Part shown: positions 2,804-61,608 of the stretch, piece by piece | Numbering within the stretch: position 1 is the stretch's first letter | Layout of the letters: the number at the start of each line of letters is the position of its first letter | Source of the DNA: Paenibacillus hamazuiensis | GTDB taxonomy: Bacteria > Bacillota > Bacilli > Paenibacillales > NBRC-103111 | Direction: 5' to 3' | DNA: 64,000 bases | NCBI RefSeq assembly: GCF_023276405.1 | Contig: NZ_JALRMO010000001.1 | Span: forward strand, 682,001-746,000 | Position numbers and translations under genes: made by a program | The notes under the pieces: model-generated | What the model was told of the DNA's origin: nothing | What the model saw: only the letters and a program-made list of their open reading frames with translations | The model's database searches: none

Positions 2804-2838
2804 AAACGGACTAGCGTAATTCGAACGCTAGTCCGTTT
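2804..2838 (-). terminator. Perfect 14-bp hairpin overlapping a stop codon
   Basis: A perfect 14-bp stem with a 7-nt loop contains the TAG stop of the HxlR regulator in its arm. On the minus strand a short T-run follows, so it should end that transcript. Confidence 0.75.
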
Positions 2839-3187
2839 CCGTTTGTTCATTTTTCGCCTTTTTAAGCCGCTTTCGCTCGGCATGGGCCACTCCCCATTGA
2901 TGCAAGGTTTCCAGAACCGGAGACAGGCTCATGCCGTATTCCGTGATGGAGTATTCCACTTTCGGCGGGATTTGCGGATAAATGACTCGTTTAACGAGCT
3001 CTTCCTCCTCCAATTCGCGCAGATGGAGCGTAAGCATCCTTTGCGTGATATCGGGCAGCAATCTTCTTAGCTCATTGAACCGCAAAGGTTTACCTTGAAG
3101 CAAATAATAAAGGATAATCGGCTTCCATTTGCCGACGATCGAATCCAGAGCCGCAACGAATTGACATTGGACAGGGTTCTTTTGCAT
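2828..3187 (-). CDS. HxlR-family transcriptional regulator
   Basis: This 119-residue protein has the compact winged-helix layout of the HxlR family (YodB, HypR, CatR type): an early Cys (residue 8), the conserved GKWKPIIL helix start near residues 19-26, the recognition region LPDITQRMLTLHLREL, and a wing ending VEYSITEYG. Family members sense quinones, diamide or aldehydes, often by oxidation of the N-terminal Cys, and repress detoxification genes. It is divergent from an azoreductase gene with 134 nt between them, the same pairing as YodB and AzoR1 in Bacillus. It therefore probably represses that azoreductase and itself. Confidence 0.9.
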   Translation of the reverse strand: MQKNPVQCQFVAALDSIVGKWKPIILYYLLQGKPLRFNELRRLLPDITQRMLTLHLRELEEEELVKRVIYPQIPPKVEYSITEYGMSLSPVLETLHQWGVAHAERKRLKKAKNEQTETD

Positions 3188-3204
3188 ACGTTGGCCTCCT
3201 AGAC

Positions 3205-3263
3205 AGTACCTTTTTTAATACTATACCACATTATTGTGCCTACTTCACATAAAAAAGTATATA
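3205..3263. promoter_or_regulatory. Candidate HxlR operator in divergent promoter region
   Basis: Between the divergent regulator and azoreductase genes lie AGTACCTTTTTTA and, about 45 nt on, TAAAAAAGTATAT, which form a loose inverted repeat. The region is very AT-rich and could hold both promoters. The operator role is inferred from position only. Confidence 0.3.
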
Positions 3264-3321
3264 TTATATGATCAACCTGGAAACTGTATTTAATTTAATT
3301 ACAGAAGGGAAGTTTTAAATC

Positions 3322-3954
3322 ATGGCAACCGTACTGTACATCACCGCACATCCTCTTGACCCTCAGGAATCTTTCAGCCTCGCGGTGGGCAAAGAATTTA
3401 TTGAAGCGTATCGTGCAGCAAATCCAACGGATGAAGTTGTTCATTTGGATCTGTACAAAGAGAATATTCCGCAATTCGACGCCGATGTTTTACGTGGTTG
3501 GGGAAAGCTTCGGTCGGGTTCGTCTTTCGATCAACTGACTGATGCTGAGAAATCAAAAGTGGCTCGTCTTGAGGCGATTGTTGATCAATACGTGGCTGCC
3601 GATAAGTACGTGTATGTTTCCCCCATGTGGAATTTCTCAATCCCGCCGGTTTTGAAAGCATACACGGATGCGACTTCAGTTCCGGGCAAAACTTTCAAAT
3701 ATACCGAAAATGGTCCTATAGGTCTGTTGCCCGGCAAGAAAGCCTTACACATTCAAGCGAGCGGTTCCGTTTATTCGGAAGGTCCTCTTGCTCCGGTTGA
3801 AATGGGCTACAGCTATCTGAAAAAGATTTTACAGTTCTACGGGATTCAATCTTTTGAGGCTATTTTTATTGAAGGAACGGCATCATTAAAGCAGGCTCCG
3901 GCTATTAAAGAAAAAGCAATTGCACATGCCAAGGAAGTAGCCAAACGTTTCTAA
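3322..3954 (+). CDS. azoR: FMN-dependent NADH-azoreductase
   Basis: The 210-residue flavodoxin-like protein matches the AzoR family in length and motifs: the N-terminal [18 protein letters not shown] loop that binds the FMN phosphate, [19 protein letters not shown] near residues 95-113, and a QASGS(V) segment near residue 150. AzoR enzymes reduce azo bonds and quinones with NADH in the cytosol and protect against thiol-reactive quinones. A GAAGGGAAG site lies upstream of the ATG. The divergent HxlR gene probably controls it. Its GC content is visibly lower than that of the flanking sugar genes. Confidence 0.92.
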
Positions 3955-3975
3955 TTAAAGTCCTGAATAACAAAA

Positions 3976-4023
3976 AAGGAGATGTCCTTCGGGTCAATGC
4001 GTGACCTTTTGGGACATCTCCTT
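3976..4023. terminator. Shared terminator between convergent genes
   Basis: AAGGAGATGTCC (3976-3987) pairs perfectly with GGACATCTCCTT (4012-4023), and a smaller GGTCA/TGACC hairpin lies in the loop. It is placed between the convergent azoR and guanylate-kinase fusion genes and could serve both strands. Confidence 0.65.
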
Positions 4024-4038
4024 CAAACTTTGCCGATC

Positions 4039-4908
4039 TTATACTTTCACCAAATTGCTAAGCAAATCTTCATAATCGTACTGCCACGACGATTTTATCG
4101 CTTCGTCCGGAGTCCAATCGGAGATTTTTACGACATAAGGCACCTTTGCGAGTCCGGCTTTATAAGCGGCGATCACTCTGTGGTGACCGTCTTCCACATA
4201 AGGAACGCCGTCCACCATAATCACCTTGATCGGGAAATGCTCGTCGAATCCTTTGGCGGACATGCTTTGCGCCAGTTTTCCCACTTTGTCCATATTGATA
4301 TTTCTTATGCTCTGGGTAAATTTCAATTTATCGATTTCAACGGAGCCGATCTTGAAAAGGTTGATGATGTTTAAAACTTGAACGACGGTATCGCGCAGCA
4401 CGTGGTTCACGATTTTAAAATCGAATTTTTCGCCTAAAGAGTTTTCGTACTCAATTCTTTTCAGACGGTTTTCGATGTCCTCTTGAGAAGTGTCGCCCCG
4501 ATTGGTCAATCTGTTGATGAGCTCCTCTTTGGAAGGAAAATCGAGGTAAATCAAAACCGCTCTGTTTCCGAACTGTTTCTTAAAATTGAGCGCACCTTCG
4601 ACATCGATATCTTTGATGATGAATTTGTTTTCGCCCAGCGCGTTTTCGTACGATTTTTTGCAGGTTCCGTAATATTTCCCCGAACCGTGAACTTCGTTAT
4701 ATTCAAGGAAGTCCCCTTCCTCAATTTTCCGCAAAAATTCTTCGTTGCTTATAAAATGATAAGGTTTGCCTTGCGATTCGCCTTCCCTCATCTCTCTTGT
4801 CGTAAAGGAGGGAATGTAGCAAATATTATCAAGCGATTTGAGAACTTCCTTGATAACGGTGTTTTTTCCTACCCCGGAAGCTCCTGAAATAACAAATATT
4901 CTGGACAT
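4039..4908 (-). CDS. Guanylate kinase-like protein fused to ParB/sulfiredoxin-like domain
   Basis: Residues 1-185 are a guanylate kinase fold: P-loop GASGVGKNT (9-17), the GMP-binding SFTTREMREGE (34-44), and IDVEGA (101-106). Residues 190-289 resemble a ParB/sulfiredoxin N-domain, with EDGHHRVIAAYKAG (239-252) as the nucleotide-binding turn. A normal Gmk is about 205 residues, so the 100-residue tail is a true addition. The start at 4908 has AAAAGGAAG 7 nt upstream; a longer start at 4947 has none. The gene is AT-rich beside GC-rich neighbours, which suggests transfer. A housekeeping GMP kinase role is doubtful; a conflict or signalling role is possible but unproven. Confidence 0.85.
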   Translation of the reverse strand: MSRIFVISGASGVGKNTVIKEVLKSLDNICYIPSFTTREMREGESQGKPYHFISNEEFLRKIEEGDFLEYNEVHGSGKYYGTCKKSYENALGENKFIIKDIDVEGALNFKKQFGNRAVLIYLDFPSKEELINRLTNRGDTSQEDIENRLKRIEYENSLGEKFDFKIVNHVLRDTVVQVLNIINLFKIGSVEIDKLKFTQSIRNINMDKVGKLAQSMSAKGFDEHFPIKVIMVDGVPYVEDGHHRVIAAYKAGLAKVPYVVKISDWTPDEAIKSSWQYDYEDLLSNLVKV

Positions 4909-5158
4909 CGTACAACTTCCTTTTCTGAAGATTATTGCGGAAATCAAGACGTTAGAAGCTTGACTAACATTATAGCATTTTTGCTGCGTAAAACCAATTG
5001 CCTGCGTCTCTCGATTCGAACGGAGAAACCGGCATGCCGCCGCTGGAAATTATTTTAAGCAGCTGGAAGGAAAATACTGGCCGCATGTAGAATAAATAGG
5101 CGAATATACATTCGCATATTGGTGAGAAGCGCTGCCGCTTGCCGAAGGAGGTGCCTGT

Positions 5159-5887
5159 TTGTTTCGCCCCGAGCCGCATCATTTGACACAATCCATCGAC
5201 TGGATGGAAAGCATCCGCCCCGAGCTGCGCGCGTATTGCTTGTCGCTGGCCCGCGATGTATGGGAGGCGGACGACCTCGTTCAGGACACGCTGCTGCGGC
5301 TGCTGCGCGTGGCGGACCGCGAGCCGGACAAGCGGCTATCGAAGTCTTATGCGTTCCGCATTGCCCGTAATTTATGGATCGATCATGTCCGCAAGCGGGG
5401 CAGAGATGCGTTCCCGCTTCCGGACGAATCTTTTCACGAGACGATGTCGGATCGGGACAACGCGTTCGATACGCGCGAAACGTTGGATGCGATTGCCCGC
5501 CTGCTTGCCCCGAGATCCGTCGTCGTTTTGCTGCTGATGGATATATTCGATTTTACGGCGAAAGAAACCGCTTCCATGATCGATTCCACCGATGGCGCCG
5601 TACAGGTTGCGCTTTCCCGCGCCCGCAGCAAGCTGCGCGCGGTGGCCGGGACCGTTAAGGCGGATGCGGACGGGCCGCCGAAGCGGAATTTCGGATCCGC
5701 CCCCGATCCGGTATGGTTTGAAGCGATATTGGACGGGTTTCGCAGACGCAACCCGCGGATCATTTACGAGGCGTATTTGCGCCTGAGCGGAGGCGGTATC
5801 CGCATCCGCCAGTTGCGCAGCGTAGGCGGACGGCTGTTTTTCACGTTTCAGGATCCCGACGGTAATTTGATCATGGTCAGCACATAA
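5159..5887 (+). CDS. ECF-type RNA polymerase sigma factor with C-terminal extension
   Basis: Region 2 spans about residues 18-90 (WEADDLVQDTLLRLLR, then FRIARNLWIDHVRKRGRD) and region 4 about residues 105-160 (LLMDIFDFTAKETASMI, then GAVQVALSRARSKLRA). It lacks the long region 3, as ECF sigmas do. After residue 165 comes a roughly 75-residue extension ending FTFQDPDGNLIMVST. That ending closely resembles the last strand of the VOC domain encoded by the next gene. AAGGAGGTG lies 6 nt before a TTG start. No anti-sigma gene is adjacent; the VOC genes follow on the same strand at short spacing and may be its regulon. Confidence 0.88.
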   Translation: MFRPEPHHLTQSIDWMESIRPELRAYCLSLARDVWEADDLVQDTLLRLLRVADREPDKRLSKSYAFRIARNLWIDHVRKRGRDAFPLPDESFHETMSDRDNAFDTRETLDAIARLLAPRSVVVLLLMDIFDFTAKETASMIDSTDGAVQVALSRARSKLRAVAGTVKADADGPPKRNFGSAPDPVWFEAILDGFRRRNPRIIYEAYLRLSGGGIRIRQLRSVGGRLFFTFQDPDGNLIMVST

Positions 5888-6012
5888 AAATTTGAGTGCG
5901 GGTGTGTATGGTTTTGATACCGCGGATCGTTGTTTAAGTATGGCGGAACCGGCCAAAGGAACGATGTGTTTCGCCGCAGGTGATAAGAAAGCGATGGAGG
6001 AGGAAGTTTATC

Positions 6013-6888
6013 ATGGAAATTATCGATCAGAAGGAAACGCCGCAAAAGCTGACGGTCAAAAATTCGAACGTGTCGGGAGCCGAGTTCAACAATTGCAGAG
6101 CGGAAAACGTCACGTTCAAGAACGTGTCGATGCCGAAGATGAGCTTTGAGTGTGCGGATCTCGGCAATGCGAGGTTCAGGGACGTCTGCTTGGCCGGCAC
6201 GCTCATTAACGACGCCAACCTGTCCGATTTGGAAATCGACGGGGCGCAGCTCGGCGGCGCGTACATTCACAACATCGGATTGCCGCCGCAGGGGCACCCG
6301 GGCTACCGTGAAGATCAGGGGCGGCAGAGGCCGCTGCGCTTTGAGATGTGCGATTTGGCCGGCAGTTCGATTACCTCGAGCGACCTGAGCGGAGTGAGAA
6401 TTGAGGGGTGCAGCATCGAAGGGCTTACGATCGACGGCATCGACATCGCCAAGCTGATCGCACGCTACCGCTCGGAGAACGGCCAGGGAGAGGAGCCGGA
6501 GCGGAAGACTCCGAAACTGACGCCTCTGCTGCGCCGGACGGGTGCCGCCTTTATTCCGGTTCGCGATATAGAGAAGGCGCGGGAGTGGTACTGCCGCATT
6601 CTGGGGCTTTCCGCCGATTCCGTGAACATTATGAACGGCCACTTGTGCCCGCTGCCGTTGGAAGGACCCGGCGTTATTTTGGATACGATGCCGATGTGGG
6701 GCGGAAAGGAAGCCGGCGGCGCTCCGACGTTCAAGACGCCTGCGTTTATGTTTTTGACCGACGATTTGCCTGCGGCTTACGCATTCATGAAAGAGCAGGG
6801 CGGCGAGCTGGTCACGGAGATCGAAAACGGCCACTGGTTTGCTTTTCGCGATCCGGACGGCAATTTGCTGATGGTTTGCCGCGCGTAA
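6013..6888 (+). CDS. Pentapeptide-repeat protein fused to a VOC domain
   Basis: Residues about 10-140 show pentapeptide-like A(D/N)LxX repeats: SGAEFNNCRAENVTFKNV, then ADLGNARFRDVCLAGTLINDANLSDL, with central L/F and A/S columns. These build a right-handed beta helix. Residues about 170-291 form one VOC (glyoxalase/bleomycin-resistance) domain, starting FIPVRDIEKAREWYCRILG and ending FRDPDGNLLMVCRA. Some pentapeptide proteins (Qnr, MfpA) mimic DNA and shield gyrase; VOC domains bind or modify small molecules. The start at 6013 has GGAGGAGGAAG 7 nt upstream; longer starts lack a site. It is the second gene of the sigma-VOC cluster. The fusion is unusual and its target unknown. Confidence 0.82.
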   Translation: MEIIDQKETPQKLTVKNSNVSGAEFNNCRAENVTFKNVSMPKMSFECADLGNARFRDVCLAGTLINDANLSDLEIDGAQLGGAYIHNIGLPPQGHPGYREDQGRQRPLRFEMCDLAGSSITSSDLSGVRIEGCSIEGLTIDGIDIAKLIARYRSENGQGEEPERKTPKLTPLLRRTGAAFIPVRDIEKAREWYCRILGLSADSVNIMNGHLCPLPLEGPGVILDTMPMWGGKEAGGAPTFKTPAFMFLTDDLPAAYAFMKEQGGELVTEIENGHWFAFRDPDGNLLMVCRA

Positions 6889-10760: not shown

Positions 10761-10844
10761 CTTGAATGACACGCAGCGCTACAGAACAAGATGCAAGCCG
10801 AACGACATAGAACTGTTATCCCGCCCAAAAGCAGCTTGCCAAAC

Positions 10845-11030
10845 ATAGCGGAACTCACATTCGCTATTTTCGGATAAATGGGCATATCGGAAAAAATAGA
10901 GGAACTGAGATGCGCTAATTCGTTGGAAAATGGCATGAGTATCGGTCAAAGAGGCAGATAGAGCACCTGAGTTCCGCTAATTTCCAAAATGATCCGAATC
11001 CGGCCACTTAGTGAACTATAGTTCCGCTAT
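10845..11030. repeat. Four-unit inverted repeat element B
   Basis: Units centred on GGAACT begin at 10850 and 10901, and their complements AGTTCC end at 10975 and 11025, so the spacing is 51 and 50 nt. Each unit is also a weak palindrome (TAGCG or TAGAG before GGAACT, CGCTA after). It follows element A by about 85 nt. A close relative lies at 34020-34195. Confidence 0.82.
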
Positions 11031-11225
11031 GGTCCTGCTTAACCTGACCACATCACTCTCGAAGCGTCATAAGGAGCTAAGCCGGCTTCGGAAGGTGGGC
11101 TTCCCCGGTGGGGGACTCAGGGGTAGCTCTGCCACCTATTTTAAAACACGGCACAAATTCTGTATAATTGAATTATCCAATCGAATGGTTCAAAATTTTT
11201 GAATCAATGCAACCGGGGTGGCGCA

Positions 11226-58025: not shown

Positions 58026-58129
58026 CGCATCCCATTCACTTTACAGCCAATAGTCGACGTTCAAGAAAATTAAAGTTTGTTAAAAATTTAAAGTGGAATA
58101 AGAACTTTACAAATTGTGGTATGATTGTA

Positions 58130-58329
58130 TTGGAGTTTGGGGTTGCATAAACCAAGGAGTCTGGATGTGGAATCCTCCGGAACACGACGGCCGGATTCGT
58201 CCGGATCACATATCCGTACCCGTACCCGTTACTTGGAGACCGGGTGTAAATACTATTCGAGCAGAGGTTACAAGTAAGGAGACCGTATTCGGATGGGGAT
58301 TTTTCCTTAAAAAAGGAATTCCTTGCTGA
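58130..58329 (+). pseudogene. Possible remnant of a glycosidase C-terminus
   Basis: The open frame contains GVWMWNPPEHDGRIRPDHIS and WRPGVNTIRAEV, then FGWGFFLKKG, which reads like the last beta-sandwich of a glycoside hydrolase but has no upstream domain or proper start. It is probably a truncated leftover in the AT-rich, decayed part of the window. Low certainty. Confidence 0.3.
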
Positions 58330-58342
58330 AGGAGGAAGAACT

Positions 58343-58528
58343 GTGATTATTTTTGCTTTCGGCGCTATATATCTGGTTCCGCTCTTTAGCTTTTTATTTG
58401 TATATACTTTGCTGAAAGCAATAGAGAAAATCGTTAATAAGCAGGGATATAACACTGAGTTGTTTTGGAGCTGTACATTTTTTGCTTTAACCATGTGGAC
58501 TATTAGCGTAACGACAACATTAAATTGA
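58343..58528 (+). CDS. Small membrane protein
   Basis: A 61-residue product begins at GTG 58343 with AAGGAGGAAG 6 nt upstream, an excellent site. The first hydrophobic segment spans about residues 2-25 and a second one the C-terminus (SCTFFALTMWTISVT). Between them lies a charged loop. No family recognised. Confidence 0.5.
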   Translation: MIIFAFGAIYLVPLFSFLFVYTLLKAIEKIVNKQGYNTELFWSCTFFALTMWTISVTTTLN

Positions 58529-58585
58529 ACGGATACGGTTGCTCAGGATTCATATTTATACCAATTAACAATGAGGTTAGGTAAT

Positions 58586-59047
58586 ATGCAGAAAAAAATA
58601 CGTTACTCATTATTGATTTTACTAATAATTACATTTATTGCTTTTACTTTTTGGACTAGAAGTAACGATAATAAGTATGTCGTTCCGGTAATAAATAGTT
58701 TCTACAGCGTTTTTATTAGTAAAGACTATTTAAATATGCCTAAATACACCAATTTTAGTAAATATGCGCAAAATTCAAATTTAACAGATGAAGGTAAGGC
58801 AAACTTGGCACACGGATTATTAAATAATGATCGGCATTGGTATGGAGAAATAAAGAGACAGACTATAAAAAGCATTGTTTGGAGAGGGATAAATAAAAGG
58901 AGTGCGACAGTTGCTGTAATAGCACTGGATGGATACGGAAAAGAACAAACTTATTATGATGAGGTTATTATTGAAAAGAAAGAGAACGGTTGGCTTATTA
59001 CAGAGTATAAATCCGGTTCGCCATGGAGAACTATGAAGATGCCTTAA
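58586..59047 (+). CDS. Uncharacterised protein with N-terminal membrane anchor
   Basis: The product (153 residues) has a Lys-Lys start, then a membrane segment (SLLILLIITFIAFTFW, about 8-23), and an outer domain with mixed strands ending IIEKKENGWLITEYKSGSPW. The plan resembles small extracytoplasmic SnoaL- or DUF4829-like proteins, but I cannot assign it. ATG at 58586 follows TGAGGTTAGGT. AT-rich, like the rest of this island. Confidence 0.55.
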   Translation: MQKKIRYSLLILLIITFIAFTFWTRSNDNKYVVPVINSFYSVFISKDYLNMPKYTNFSKYAQNSNLTDEGKANLAHGLLNNDRHWYGEIKRQTIKSIVWRGINKRSATVAVIALDGYGKEQTYYDEVIIEKKENGWLITEYKSGSPWRTMKMP

Positions 59048-59189
59048 GACGAATCGGAAGACCCATAAGTTTGACATGGCTGTTGCCGACGGAAATTGAA
59101 ACAATATTTCCCAAAGTTCGTCTTTATACATAGCAGGTGGAAAGGGTGGATGTTAAAACCCATTTATTACTGTCCATGAGGTGACCGAT

Positions 59190-59703
59190 TTGAAGAGGAT
59201 AGCAGGTACGCTTTTTTTGTATTTGGCGCTATTTGGATTGGTCGTTGGTTGTGAAGCTGCAAAGGTAAGTAACACTGAAGTCGCCACGAATACTAAAGCA
59301 AGCAGTTCTATAAATCTCACTGACGATGAAGTAAAGGATATTCTCAACGGGCTTATTCCGAAGGCAGTAAATATTTACGGAATATTTAACGGAAACGGAG
59401 CTTTCACAAGCGATGCGGCAAAAACGATTCCAGGTGAAGAAGAGTATTGTCTTATAACAGGACAGAACGGGTCTTCCTCTATATAAAGATTATGAAGGGC
59501 AGCTTTATGTAAACACACAAAATGGAGGACATGGATGGGCAGAAAAATTTCTCATTGATACCGCCAAGCTCAAAGGACAAAAAGGCAATGTTGCGGAAAT
59601 TGAGTTAGACAAAACAACACTTGACCTGCCGCCTGAAAAATTGACCATAAGCATTGGATATGTAAATGATAAGTGGCTGATGGCATCGCCGCTTGTTAAA
59701 TAA
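59190..59703 (+). pseudogene. IseA-like protein gene, frameshifted
   Basis: The first frame encodes a signal segment with a lipobox-like VVGC, then LTDDEVKDILNGLIPKA and a frame stop at 59486 after EEYCLITGQNG. From about 59471 a second frame continues LPLYKDYEGQLYVN, NGGHGWAEKFLID and WLMASPLVK to 59703. Both parts fit IseA-type inhibitors of DL-endopeptidases (cell separation control), and about 40 residues usually between them appear to be missing. A deletion with a frameshift therefore broke the gene, unless sequence error explains it. Confidence 0.55.
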
Positions 59704-59770
59704 GAGAAAGCAGTGGAATTGCTATCGAATACTAAACGTAACAAACATAAGTCTGGGAGGGGGGATTTGG

Positions 59771-59943
59771 ATGAAAGTTATAATCGGTGCAGGAAGAACA
59801 AGCTATGATGGTTGGCTCAGTACTCAAGAGGATCAATTGAATTTACTATCGTTGGAAAGCTGGAACATTTCAACCGGAGAGTATTGATGCGCTGTTGGCT
59901 GATGTGGACGCCAAAAAGCCGTTGATAATAAAAAATAAGCCCT
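59771..59943 (+). pseudogene. Methyltransferase N-terminal fragment
   Basis: ATG 59771 after GGGAGGGGGG starts MKVIIGAGRTSYDGWLSTQE, the typical beginning of a SAM-dependent methyltransferase of the kind that reads GAG.xYDGW. The frame stops after 38 residues; a shifted frame then carries FQPESIDALLADVDAKKP and stops at 59943. It looks like a truncated, frameshifted remnant. Confidence 0.45.
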
Positions 59944-59977
59944 GAGTGCAGGGGATGGAGGGCTGCCGTAAGCTTCA

Positions 59978-60475
59978 TTATGAACGATCGGGAGCATTCG
60001 GTTTATTGTCAAGCGCCGGTTTGGAGAAAAACCAAACGCAAAATAAACGCGCTAAAAATAAAGAAACACATATTGTAATCCAAGTAATATACCATTCCCA
60101 GTATACATACTTGATTAGATCGGTGTATTTTTCGATAATAACTTCAACGCCGGACAAAACGGAGCTGAATCCGACATAATAACCAAGCTGAATCAGAGCG
60201 CCGCGTTTATTGGGATACCAAACATTAAAGGCGGCGCAAATGACCGGATACGCATAATGCTCATACGTGAAGCTCGTCCGGTTAACGGAAGCAAATAACC
60301 GAACAGGATATTCAAGCAGCCCCGTCTCTACAACCGCTAGTCCCGTAAGAAAAGTAATCACCTGAGTGAACAAAAAAGCGACGACCGCCAGTCGAATTTT
60401 ATTTTTCGGAATGAAAAAAAGGATTCCTGTAGCCACCACGTACACGGATAATAAGATCCACCATTCCATTCTCAT
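59978..60475 (-). CDS. CBO0543-type membrane protein
   Basis: The 165-residue protein has four or five hydrophobic segments and the pattern typical of CBO0543-annotated proteins, with YAYPVICAAFNVWYPNKRG in the middle and EVIIEKYTDLIKYVYWEWYITWI near the C-terminus. No catalytic residues are evident. Its ATG overlaps the stop of the related gene upstream on the minus strand (ATGA), so the pair is translationally coupled. Function unknown. Confidence 0.7.
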   Translation of the reverse strand: MRMEWWILLSVYVVATGILFFIPKNKIRLAVVAFLFTQVITFLTGLAVVETGLLEYPVRLFASVNRTSFTYEHYAYPVICAAFNVWYPNKRGALIQLGYYVGFSSVLSGVEVIIEKYTDLIKYVYWEWYITWITICVSLFLARLFCVWFFSKPALDNKPNAPDRS

Positions 60476-60963
60476 CGGATTTTCTCACGCTCCGCTTGAA
60501 ATAAGGCGTTGTTCTTGAAAAACCAGTTACAGCAGACTTGGCTGGCGTAGAAAAGAAACCCGATGTAAATCCACATCCTATACCATGTTAAGAGCCCATA
60601 TTCCAGTAAATCCGTATATTTCTCGAGGGTAACATCCAACGACGTGATCGCAGTGATCCAAATTAAAAAATACGTTAATCTGGACCACCATTTTCCCTTC
60701 ACTCTCCTGTGAAAATAAAATATGGAAAACAAGACCGGATAAAAAAAATAATTGATCGTTATCGCGAGATCTGACGCTTTAGGGAACTCCCGGACGGGGG
60801 CGCTTAACAAATTGTATGTAAAGGCCGGTATATCACAGTTCCATATGATGGTTTGAAATATCATTAACGCGAGTAATCCCTCTCGCCGATTTTGGCGCGG
60901 AATAAATAAAATAAAACCAACAAAGCCGAGCAGCCACATACCGGCCAGGATCAATCGCTCCAT
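60472..60963 (-). CDS. CBO0543-type membrane protein
   Basis: The 163-residue protein is a paralogue of the one downstream: DVTLEKYTDLLEYGLLTWYRMWI corresponds to its EKYTDLIKYVYWEWYITWI. The start at 60963 has AGGAGGGGG 9 nt upstream; the longer start at 60987 has none. There are four to five membrane segments. Two tandem copies suggest a hetero-oligomer or recent duplication; the function is not known. Confidence 0.7.
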   Translation of the reverse strand: MERLILAGMWLLGFVGFILFIPRQNRREGLLALMIFQTIIWNCDIPAFTYNLLSAPVREFPKASDLAITINYFFYPVLFSIFYFHRRVKGKWWSRLTYFLIWITAITSLDVTLEKYTDLLEYGLLTWYRMWIYIGFLFYASQVCCNWFFKNNALFQAEREKIR

Positions 60964-61089
60964 GCGGTCAGTCCCCCTCCTAATCATGCTCCATACAGTA
61001 GCATGTTTAGTTCGTTCAATTTATATCCATAGCATCAAGATTTTGCATAATGGTTTTCAGTTTGAATTTGTAAGGAGTTGGAAAGAAGC

Positions 61090-61608
61090 ATGCTCGGATT
61101 ACCTAAAGGGAAAGTATTTCTTGTGCCTTGGACGTCGCAATGGGAAACGGAATTTTGGACGGAGAAACAAAGGATACAATCTGAAATTGGCGAGCGCGTT
61201 TCGGAGATTCATCATATTGGAAGCACCGCTATTCGAGGGTTGAGCGCCAAGCCGATTATTGATATCGCGATTGAGATTGAGCGGTTCGAGGAAGGAATCG
61301 AATGCGTTCCCGGCTTGGAGAAGCTGGGATACTCCTACAAGGGAACGAATGTACTACCGGAGCGGCATTATTTCAATAAAGGCGAACCTAGAACCCACCA
61401 AATACATATGTTCCAAAAAGGAAACGAACATTTGAAAAAACAGCTGGCTTTCAGAGATTATTTGAATCAAAATGAGACCGTTCGTTCCGAGTACCAGGAA
61501 CTTAAAGAAAAGTTGTCCAAAGCTTACAGCGCCGACAAATTGGCTTACGCAGATGCCAAAACCGATTTTGTAAGCTCTGTTTTGAGACGACTTGATTTTG
61601 AAAATTAA
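61090..61608 (+). CDS. GrpB-family protein
   Basis: The 172-residue protein is of the GrpB/UPF0157 nucleotidyltransferase-like family: IHHIGSTAIRGLSAKPIIDIAIEI near residues 38-62 is the hallmark, with the DI(A) acidic pair. Near the end AYSADKLAYADAKTDF is also typical. The reaction is unproven. ATG 61090 lies 12 nt after GGAG. It is divergent from the CBO0543 pair and AT-rich, in the accessory island. Confidence 0.88.
   Translation: MLGLPKGKVFLVPWTSQWETEFWTEKQRIQSEIGERVSEIHHIGSTAIRGLSAKPIIDIAIEIERFEEGIECVPGLEKLGYSYKGTNVLPERHYFNKGEPRTHQIHMFQKGNEHLKKQLAFRDYLNQNETVRSEYQELKEKLSKAYSADKLAYADAKTDFVSSVLRRLDFEN

Follow-up and report, generated by a model that had tools for sequence, protein, structure and literature searches.

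What does a guanylate kinase gain from a ParB-like domain on its C-terminus? The question is posed by a 289-residue reading frame of Paenibacillus hamazuiensis, located in a 64,000-nucleotide stretch of DNA, the whole of which is called the window here. A preliminary description had proposed that this frame encodes a guanylate kinase (Gmk) fused to a ParB/sulfiredoxin (Srx)-like domain, and that the fusion has a signalling or conflict role. The first proposal is borne out by matches to PF00625 and TIGR03263 in the N-terminal part, by PHROG 1033 in the tail, and by fold matches with Z of about 10; the second is taken up below. The gene and its parts are listed in Table 1.

Table 1. Features of the fusion gene and its flanks, in window positions.
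Feature	Position	Strand	Basis or remark
CDS, guanylate kinase + ParB/Srx-fold fusion, 289 aa	4039..4908	(-)	start ATG 4908, stop 4039-4041
Guanylate kinase domain, residues 1-183	4360..4908	(-)	PF00625 2-182; TIGR03263 above cut-off; residue check
P-loop GASGVGKN, residues 9-16	4861..4884	(-)	alignment of Gmks
ParB/sulfiredoxin-fold domain (predicted), residues 185-289	4042..4356	(-)	PHROG 1033, Treponema relatives, fold search
DGHHR, GxxR phosphate-binding (P, Box II) motif, residues 240-244	4177..4191	(-)	G and R unchanged across 26 aligned relatives
Extended -10 promoter-like TGCTATAAT	4969..4977	(-)	by eye; consensus scan did not list it
Weak -35 TTGGTT	4992-4997	(-)	by eye
Shine-Dalgarno-like AAGGAAG	4916..4922	(-)	7 nt before ATG
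Hairpin of intrinsic-terminator type with T run, downstream of the gene	3972..4021	(-)	-29.7 kcal/mol, z -4.95

With a promoter-like site, a ribosome-binding site and a terminator-like hairpin of its own, the fusion gene is, judged by these signals, monocistronic. The two domains follow each other almost without a linker, the ParB fold starting about 2 residues after the end of the Gmk domain. Codons ATG, GTG and TTG were looked for across the junction (V170 to L195) and none was found. The tail thus lacks a start of its own at this point, which argues for a single protein, and two genes merged through a missed stop codon can be ruled out on the same ground.

The N-terminal half is matched by Guanylate_kin (PF00625) over residues 2-182 (E 7.7e-34) and passes the TIGR03263 equivalog cut-off of 160.45 bits with 176.1 bits. 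The preliminary description had also stated that the P-loop and the GMP contacts are kept, and this is confirmed by alignment with 24 other Gmk-type domains, a set from which the paralogue L003 was left out: 20 of the 22 columns invariant across these reference proteins are retained, among them S8, G12, G14, K15, S34, T36, R38, R41, E44, Y50, E69, Y80, R133 and R137, and the two lost ones are V87 and F121, both replaced by tyrosine. The retained positions are presumably the P-loop, GMP-contact and lid residues, the roles of which are known from the yeast and E. coli enzymes. In a tree, 12 resident-type Gmks of the order form a clade (support 97/96) that does not include the kinase domain, whose own branch is long (3.61 changes per column); the domain therefore did not arise by recent copying of the resident gmk. 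The fusion thus resembles an ordinary Gmk (TIGR03263, PF00625) in its curated cut-off and active-site residues, but differs from it in this tree position, in an added 105-residue ParB-fold tail, and in lacking YicC- or rpoZ-type neighbours.

The genome holds three Guanylate_kin matches, namely the fusion gene, a canonical gmk at G000:C1:3190403, which adjoins a YicC-type gene (YicC named by eye), and L003. Since a separate canonical gmk is present, the fusion gene is accessory, and the view that it is not the housekeeping Gmk holds. The third gene, L003 (G000:C1:7298009-7298539), is guanylate-kinase-like, but the lysine of its P-loop is replaced (GPNGAGRR), so that its kinase is probably altered or inactive.

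The tail matches the ParB-like PHROG 1033 (E 3.1e-8), and among the candidates eight ParB-like proteins of Treponema share 40-41% identity with it (E 5e-15 to 1e-10). Both matches are evidence independent of a profile built from the tail itself, whose E-values lean towards ParB because it holds ParB rows. The Pfam cut-offs are missed, with 17.3 versus 26.3 bits for ParB_N (PF02195) and 22.1 versus 23.6 bits for ParBc_2 (PF08857). The nucleotide-binding turn of the ParB/Srx fold that had been noted in the tail can be located in EDGHHRVIAAYKAG (residues 239-252 of the fusion protein), in which the GxxR motif is kept, and G241 and R244 of this motif are invariant in 26 aligned rows. GxxR is defined as the Box II phosphate motif in section 9 of PMC12704722, and DGHHR fits that definition. 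An AlphaFold2 model of the tail, made from 23 aligned rows that include ParB proteins, has a pLDDT of 74.5 and a pTM of 0.66 (a single-sequence model of the full-length protein reached a pLDDT of 35). The best fold match of the tail model is Arabidopsis Srx (Z 10.3), with ParB:CDP (10.1), Noc (9.9) and PadC (9.7) close by and the serine kinases SbnI (up to 8.6) and SerK (up to 8.3) further down; the matches include structures of ParB and Srx with CDP, CTP or ATP bound. On these profile and model grounds, the tail is a ParB/Srx-fold domain with an intact GxxR motif.

Which member of this fold class it resembles in function is a separate matter. A ParB partition protein can be set aside, because the helix-turn-helix (HTH) and dimerisation domain required for one is absent; none was found after the ParB fold, and the protein ends 45 residues past DGHHR. 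The alignments disagree on whether Gln199 corresponds to the Gln of the QPR motif in ParB, and this assignment was dropped. Sulfiredoxin, despite its leading fold match, has an active-site cysteine in its GCHR motif where the tail has His242, and with this cysteine missing a sulfiredoxin is less likely. SerK and SbnI have both the fold and a DGHHR-type motif in common with the tail, and DGHHR and the adjoining residues align with SerK; however, the tail is fused to a Gmk domain, and in a gap-free stretch the position of SerK Glu30 is occupied by Gln199. Glu30 is catalytic in SerK. One of the fold-search entries, 5x0j, is itself named as an E30Q mutant chain of SerK. A serine kinase is thus also less likely, and the NCBIfam SerK model, with its cut-off at 380 bits, scores 13.

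A comparable layout is found in a plasmid protein of Parabacteroides distasonis (WP_195207923.1), annotated as a (d)CMP kinase, in which a Cytidylate_kin2 domain is followed by a ParB-like domain with DGHKR. Its tail is 33% identical to that of the Gmk fusion over 60 residues, and on its own matches PHROG 1033 with an E of 1.2e-4. The two proteins share the order of a nucleoside monophosphate (NMP) kinase and then a ParB-like domain, but differ in the kinase type and in their surroundings. On plasmid NZ_CP143950.1 (locus L027, 5490-11037), genes for a cupin, an AAA_28 kinase, a membrane-like protein, the CMP kinase-ParB fusion, a radical SAM/SPASM protein, a dehydrogenase and a phosphoribosyltransferase occur together, possibly as a biosynthetic cluster. 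Relatives of the Parabacteroides kinase on a Rhodococcus plasmid and in Bacillota (L063) were considered as further ParB fusions and rejected, as their tails match no ParB family. With a different NMP kinase in the same layout, the Parabacteroides protein points to more than one origin for the combination of NMP kinase and ParB fold.

The company of the Parabacteroides gene, together with the SerK-like residues around DGHHR and the place of SerK and SbnI among the fold matches, raises the prospect of a bifunctional metabolic enzyme, in which the tail would act on small molecules as a kinase of SerK/SbnI type and serve one biosynthetic route together with the NMP kinase. However, the catalytic glutamate of SerK is replaced, the SerK model falls far short of its cut-off, and no biosynthetic neighbours were found in the window, so that this explanation is improbable.

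Similar domains also occur in toxins. Polymorphic toxins of the same order end in DGHHR domains (L059, with a PT-HINT domain, and L060, which is alike by eye), and a Streptomyces DGHHR domain comes, by eye, after a pretoxin-like stretch with VLVHN. The fusion protein has the DGHHR domain type in common with the Tox-ParB-like domains of L059, L060 and L089, but it has no secretion, RHS or HINT part. N-terminal to the tail there is only Gmk, and the gene is flanked by those for a reductase and a sigma factor; no immunity or antitoxin gene was seen beside the gene. Two PADLOC models match the fusion protein itself, VakA (E 1.6e-6, residues 1-154) and PDC-M51B (E 0.0023, residues 1-27), both within the kinase domain only. 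VakA is a viperin-associated kinase and is expected with a linked viperin gene. The ten neighbouring proteins were scanned and gave no PADLOC match, and with the VakA match confined to the kinase domain, this assignment was rejected.

These toxin comparisons, which were made partly by eye, are the kind expected of a conflict effector or antiphage protein, in which the ParB fold would be a nuclease or an NTP-consuming toxin-like domain and the kinase would sense or drain guanine nucleotides. Passages of PMC3482391 and PMC5512222 discuss Tox-ParB and ParB NTPase/DNase roles in conflict systems, and PMC10853773 includes a proposal that P-loop kinases are phage-nucleotide sensors. However, a neighbourhood free of PADLOC matches and of an adjoining immunity gene, and a protein with neither a secretion nor a pretoxin part, make such a role rather unlikely; the signalling or conflict function first proposed for the gene is hypothetical.

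The gene had also been described as a lone AT-rich insertion. Its GC content is indeed low (0.424, versus 0.546 for the window), but it is not alone in this, as the adjoining genes for a flavodoxin-like reductase (0.453) and an HxlR protein (0.483) are low in GC too, and the AT-rich block, about 2.75-5.0 kb, spans all three. The HxlR and reductase pair (window 2804-3955) is 82-91% identical in three relatives, where it has other surroundings and no fusion gene beside it. The neighbourhood is therefore variable, and there is a hint in these sequences that the pair is a mobile two-gene cassette. For the fusion gene itself, the low GC content, the lack of the gene in relatives and its position in the tree indicate that it was most likely acquired horizontally. 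No donor lineage was found, the kinase tree being poorly resolved outside the resident clade.

Several other features of the window may be recorded here. On the other side of the gene lie an ECF-type sigma factor (5159-5887) with a weak, below cut-off glyoxalase-like C-terminal end, then a pentapeptide-repeat and glyoxalase fusion (5980-6888), followed by ORFs that are glyoxalase-like by eye. A second AT-rich block (58036-61608) has ORFs with a GC content of 0.32-0.44, against 0.55 for the window, which by eye encode small membrane-like proteins and a GrpB-like protein. A repeat about 213 nt long (10841-11055, (+) strand) is dispersed over the genome in at least 40 copies, at 79-86% identity, and has none in 8 relatives, one of them of the same genus; its RNA would fold into a nested hairpin of some length (-69 kcal/mol, z -4.4), and it has no Rfam match.

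A search for the same two-domain order in other genomes had been suggested as a check and was run; no second Gmk-ParB fusion was found in the collections searched. With the full-length protein, 58 other genomes gave 0 such fusions, the longest stop-free match ending at residue 187, and no Gmk in these genomes carries such a tail. Two findings had been named beforehand as refuting the reading, the lack of a typical gmk elsewhere in the genome and a tail known as a Gmk extension, and neither was obtained. Searches with the tail matched 7 other genomes in the phylum set (299), 2 in the family set (104), 4 in the order set (392) and 4 in the class set (398), these sets overlapping and each counting the genome itself, and again yielded no fusion. 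The 14 distinct tail loci in other genomes belong, by eye, to ParB/Noc-like, methyltransferase, SbnI-like, polymorphic-toxin, stand-alone ParB-like or chance proteins, and their open frames, also inspected by eye, contain no Gmk domain. In plasmids and phages, tblastn gave 114 and 92 matching records, none covering 80% of the protein, and further searches of genome contigs and viral contigs gave no kinase fusion. In the literature naming both guanylate kinase and ParB, no title concerns a fusion (titles and the main text of the PMC12704722 survey).

A fusion confined to one genome, with a long kinase branch, is what might be seen if a mobile gmk had gained a ParB-like tail that does little, leaving a redundant GMP kinase by a chance or near-neutral event. 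However, both motifs are intact, the gene has a promoter-like site, a ribosome-binding site and a terminator, and the same layout occurs with another NMP kinase; an accident of this kind is rather unlikely.

The explanation tentatively preferred here, with a probability of roughly 0.38, is a GMP kinase gated by an NTP-binding ParB module, encoded by a horizontally acquired, stand-alone accessory gene. The N-terminal domain would use ATP to phosphorylate GMP or a nucleotide like it, while an NTP (CTP, GTP or ATP) would be bound by the ParB fold at the C-terminus, which would gate or position the kinase. The fusion would then act as a GMP kinase that senses the nucleotide state, and not in partition, in serine phosphorylation or as a sulfiredoxin. 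The intact Gmk-type domain, the ParB/Srx fold with its GxxR motif, the monocistronic gene and the separate canonical gmk are in favour of such an enzyme; its restriction to one genome and the tail scores below the Pfam cut-offs weigh against it.

ParB-fold fusions are already known, and it is the Gmk partner that appears to be new within the collections searched. A PNAS 2025 survey (PMC12704722) includes measurements of CTP, ATP or GTP binding for ParB folds in fusions with many domains of other kinds, and makes a case for coupling to the partner. Like the gene described here, those fusions combine a GxxR ParB fold with an unrelated domain, lie away from ParA and were probably acquired horizontally. 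However, the main text of the survey names no "guanylate" or "nucleotide kinase" partner, and the partner here is an NMP kinase. A Gmk fusion could have been missed there, because the fusion figure of the survey uses PF02195, which the tail does not reach.

It may even be that NMP kinase-ParB proteins form a convergent class, in which an NTP-binding ParB switch (CTP or GTP) governs the activity of an NMP kinase. One nucleotide pool would thereby steer another, or a nucleotide altered by phage would be sensed; guanylate kinases would be represented for the first time by this gene, and cytidylate kinases by the one on the Parabacteroides plasmid. This is a speculative extension, and quite unlikely. 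For the gated GMP kinase itself there is at present one orphan gene, both halves of which have standard in vitro assays. ParB folds are portable NTP-binding modules, and if the gated kinase is real, a CTP- or GTP-type switch would act directly on guanine-nucleotide metabolism.
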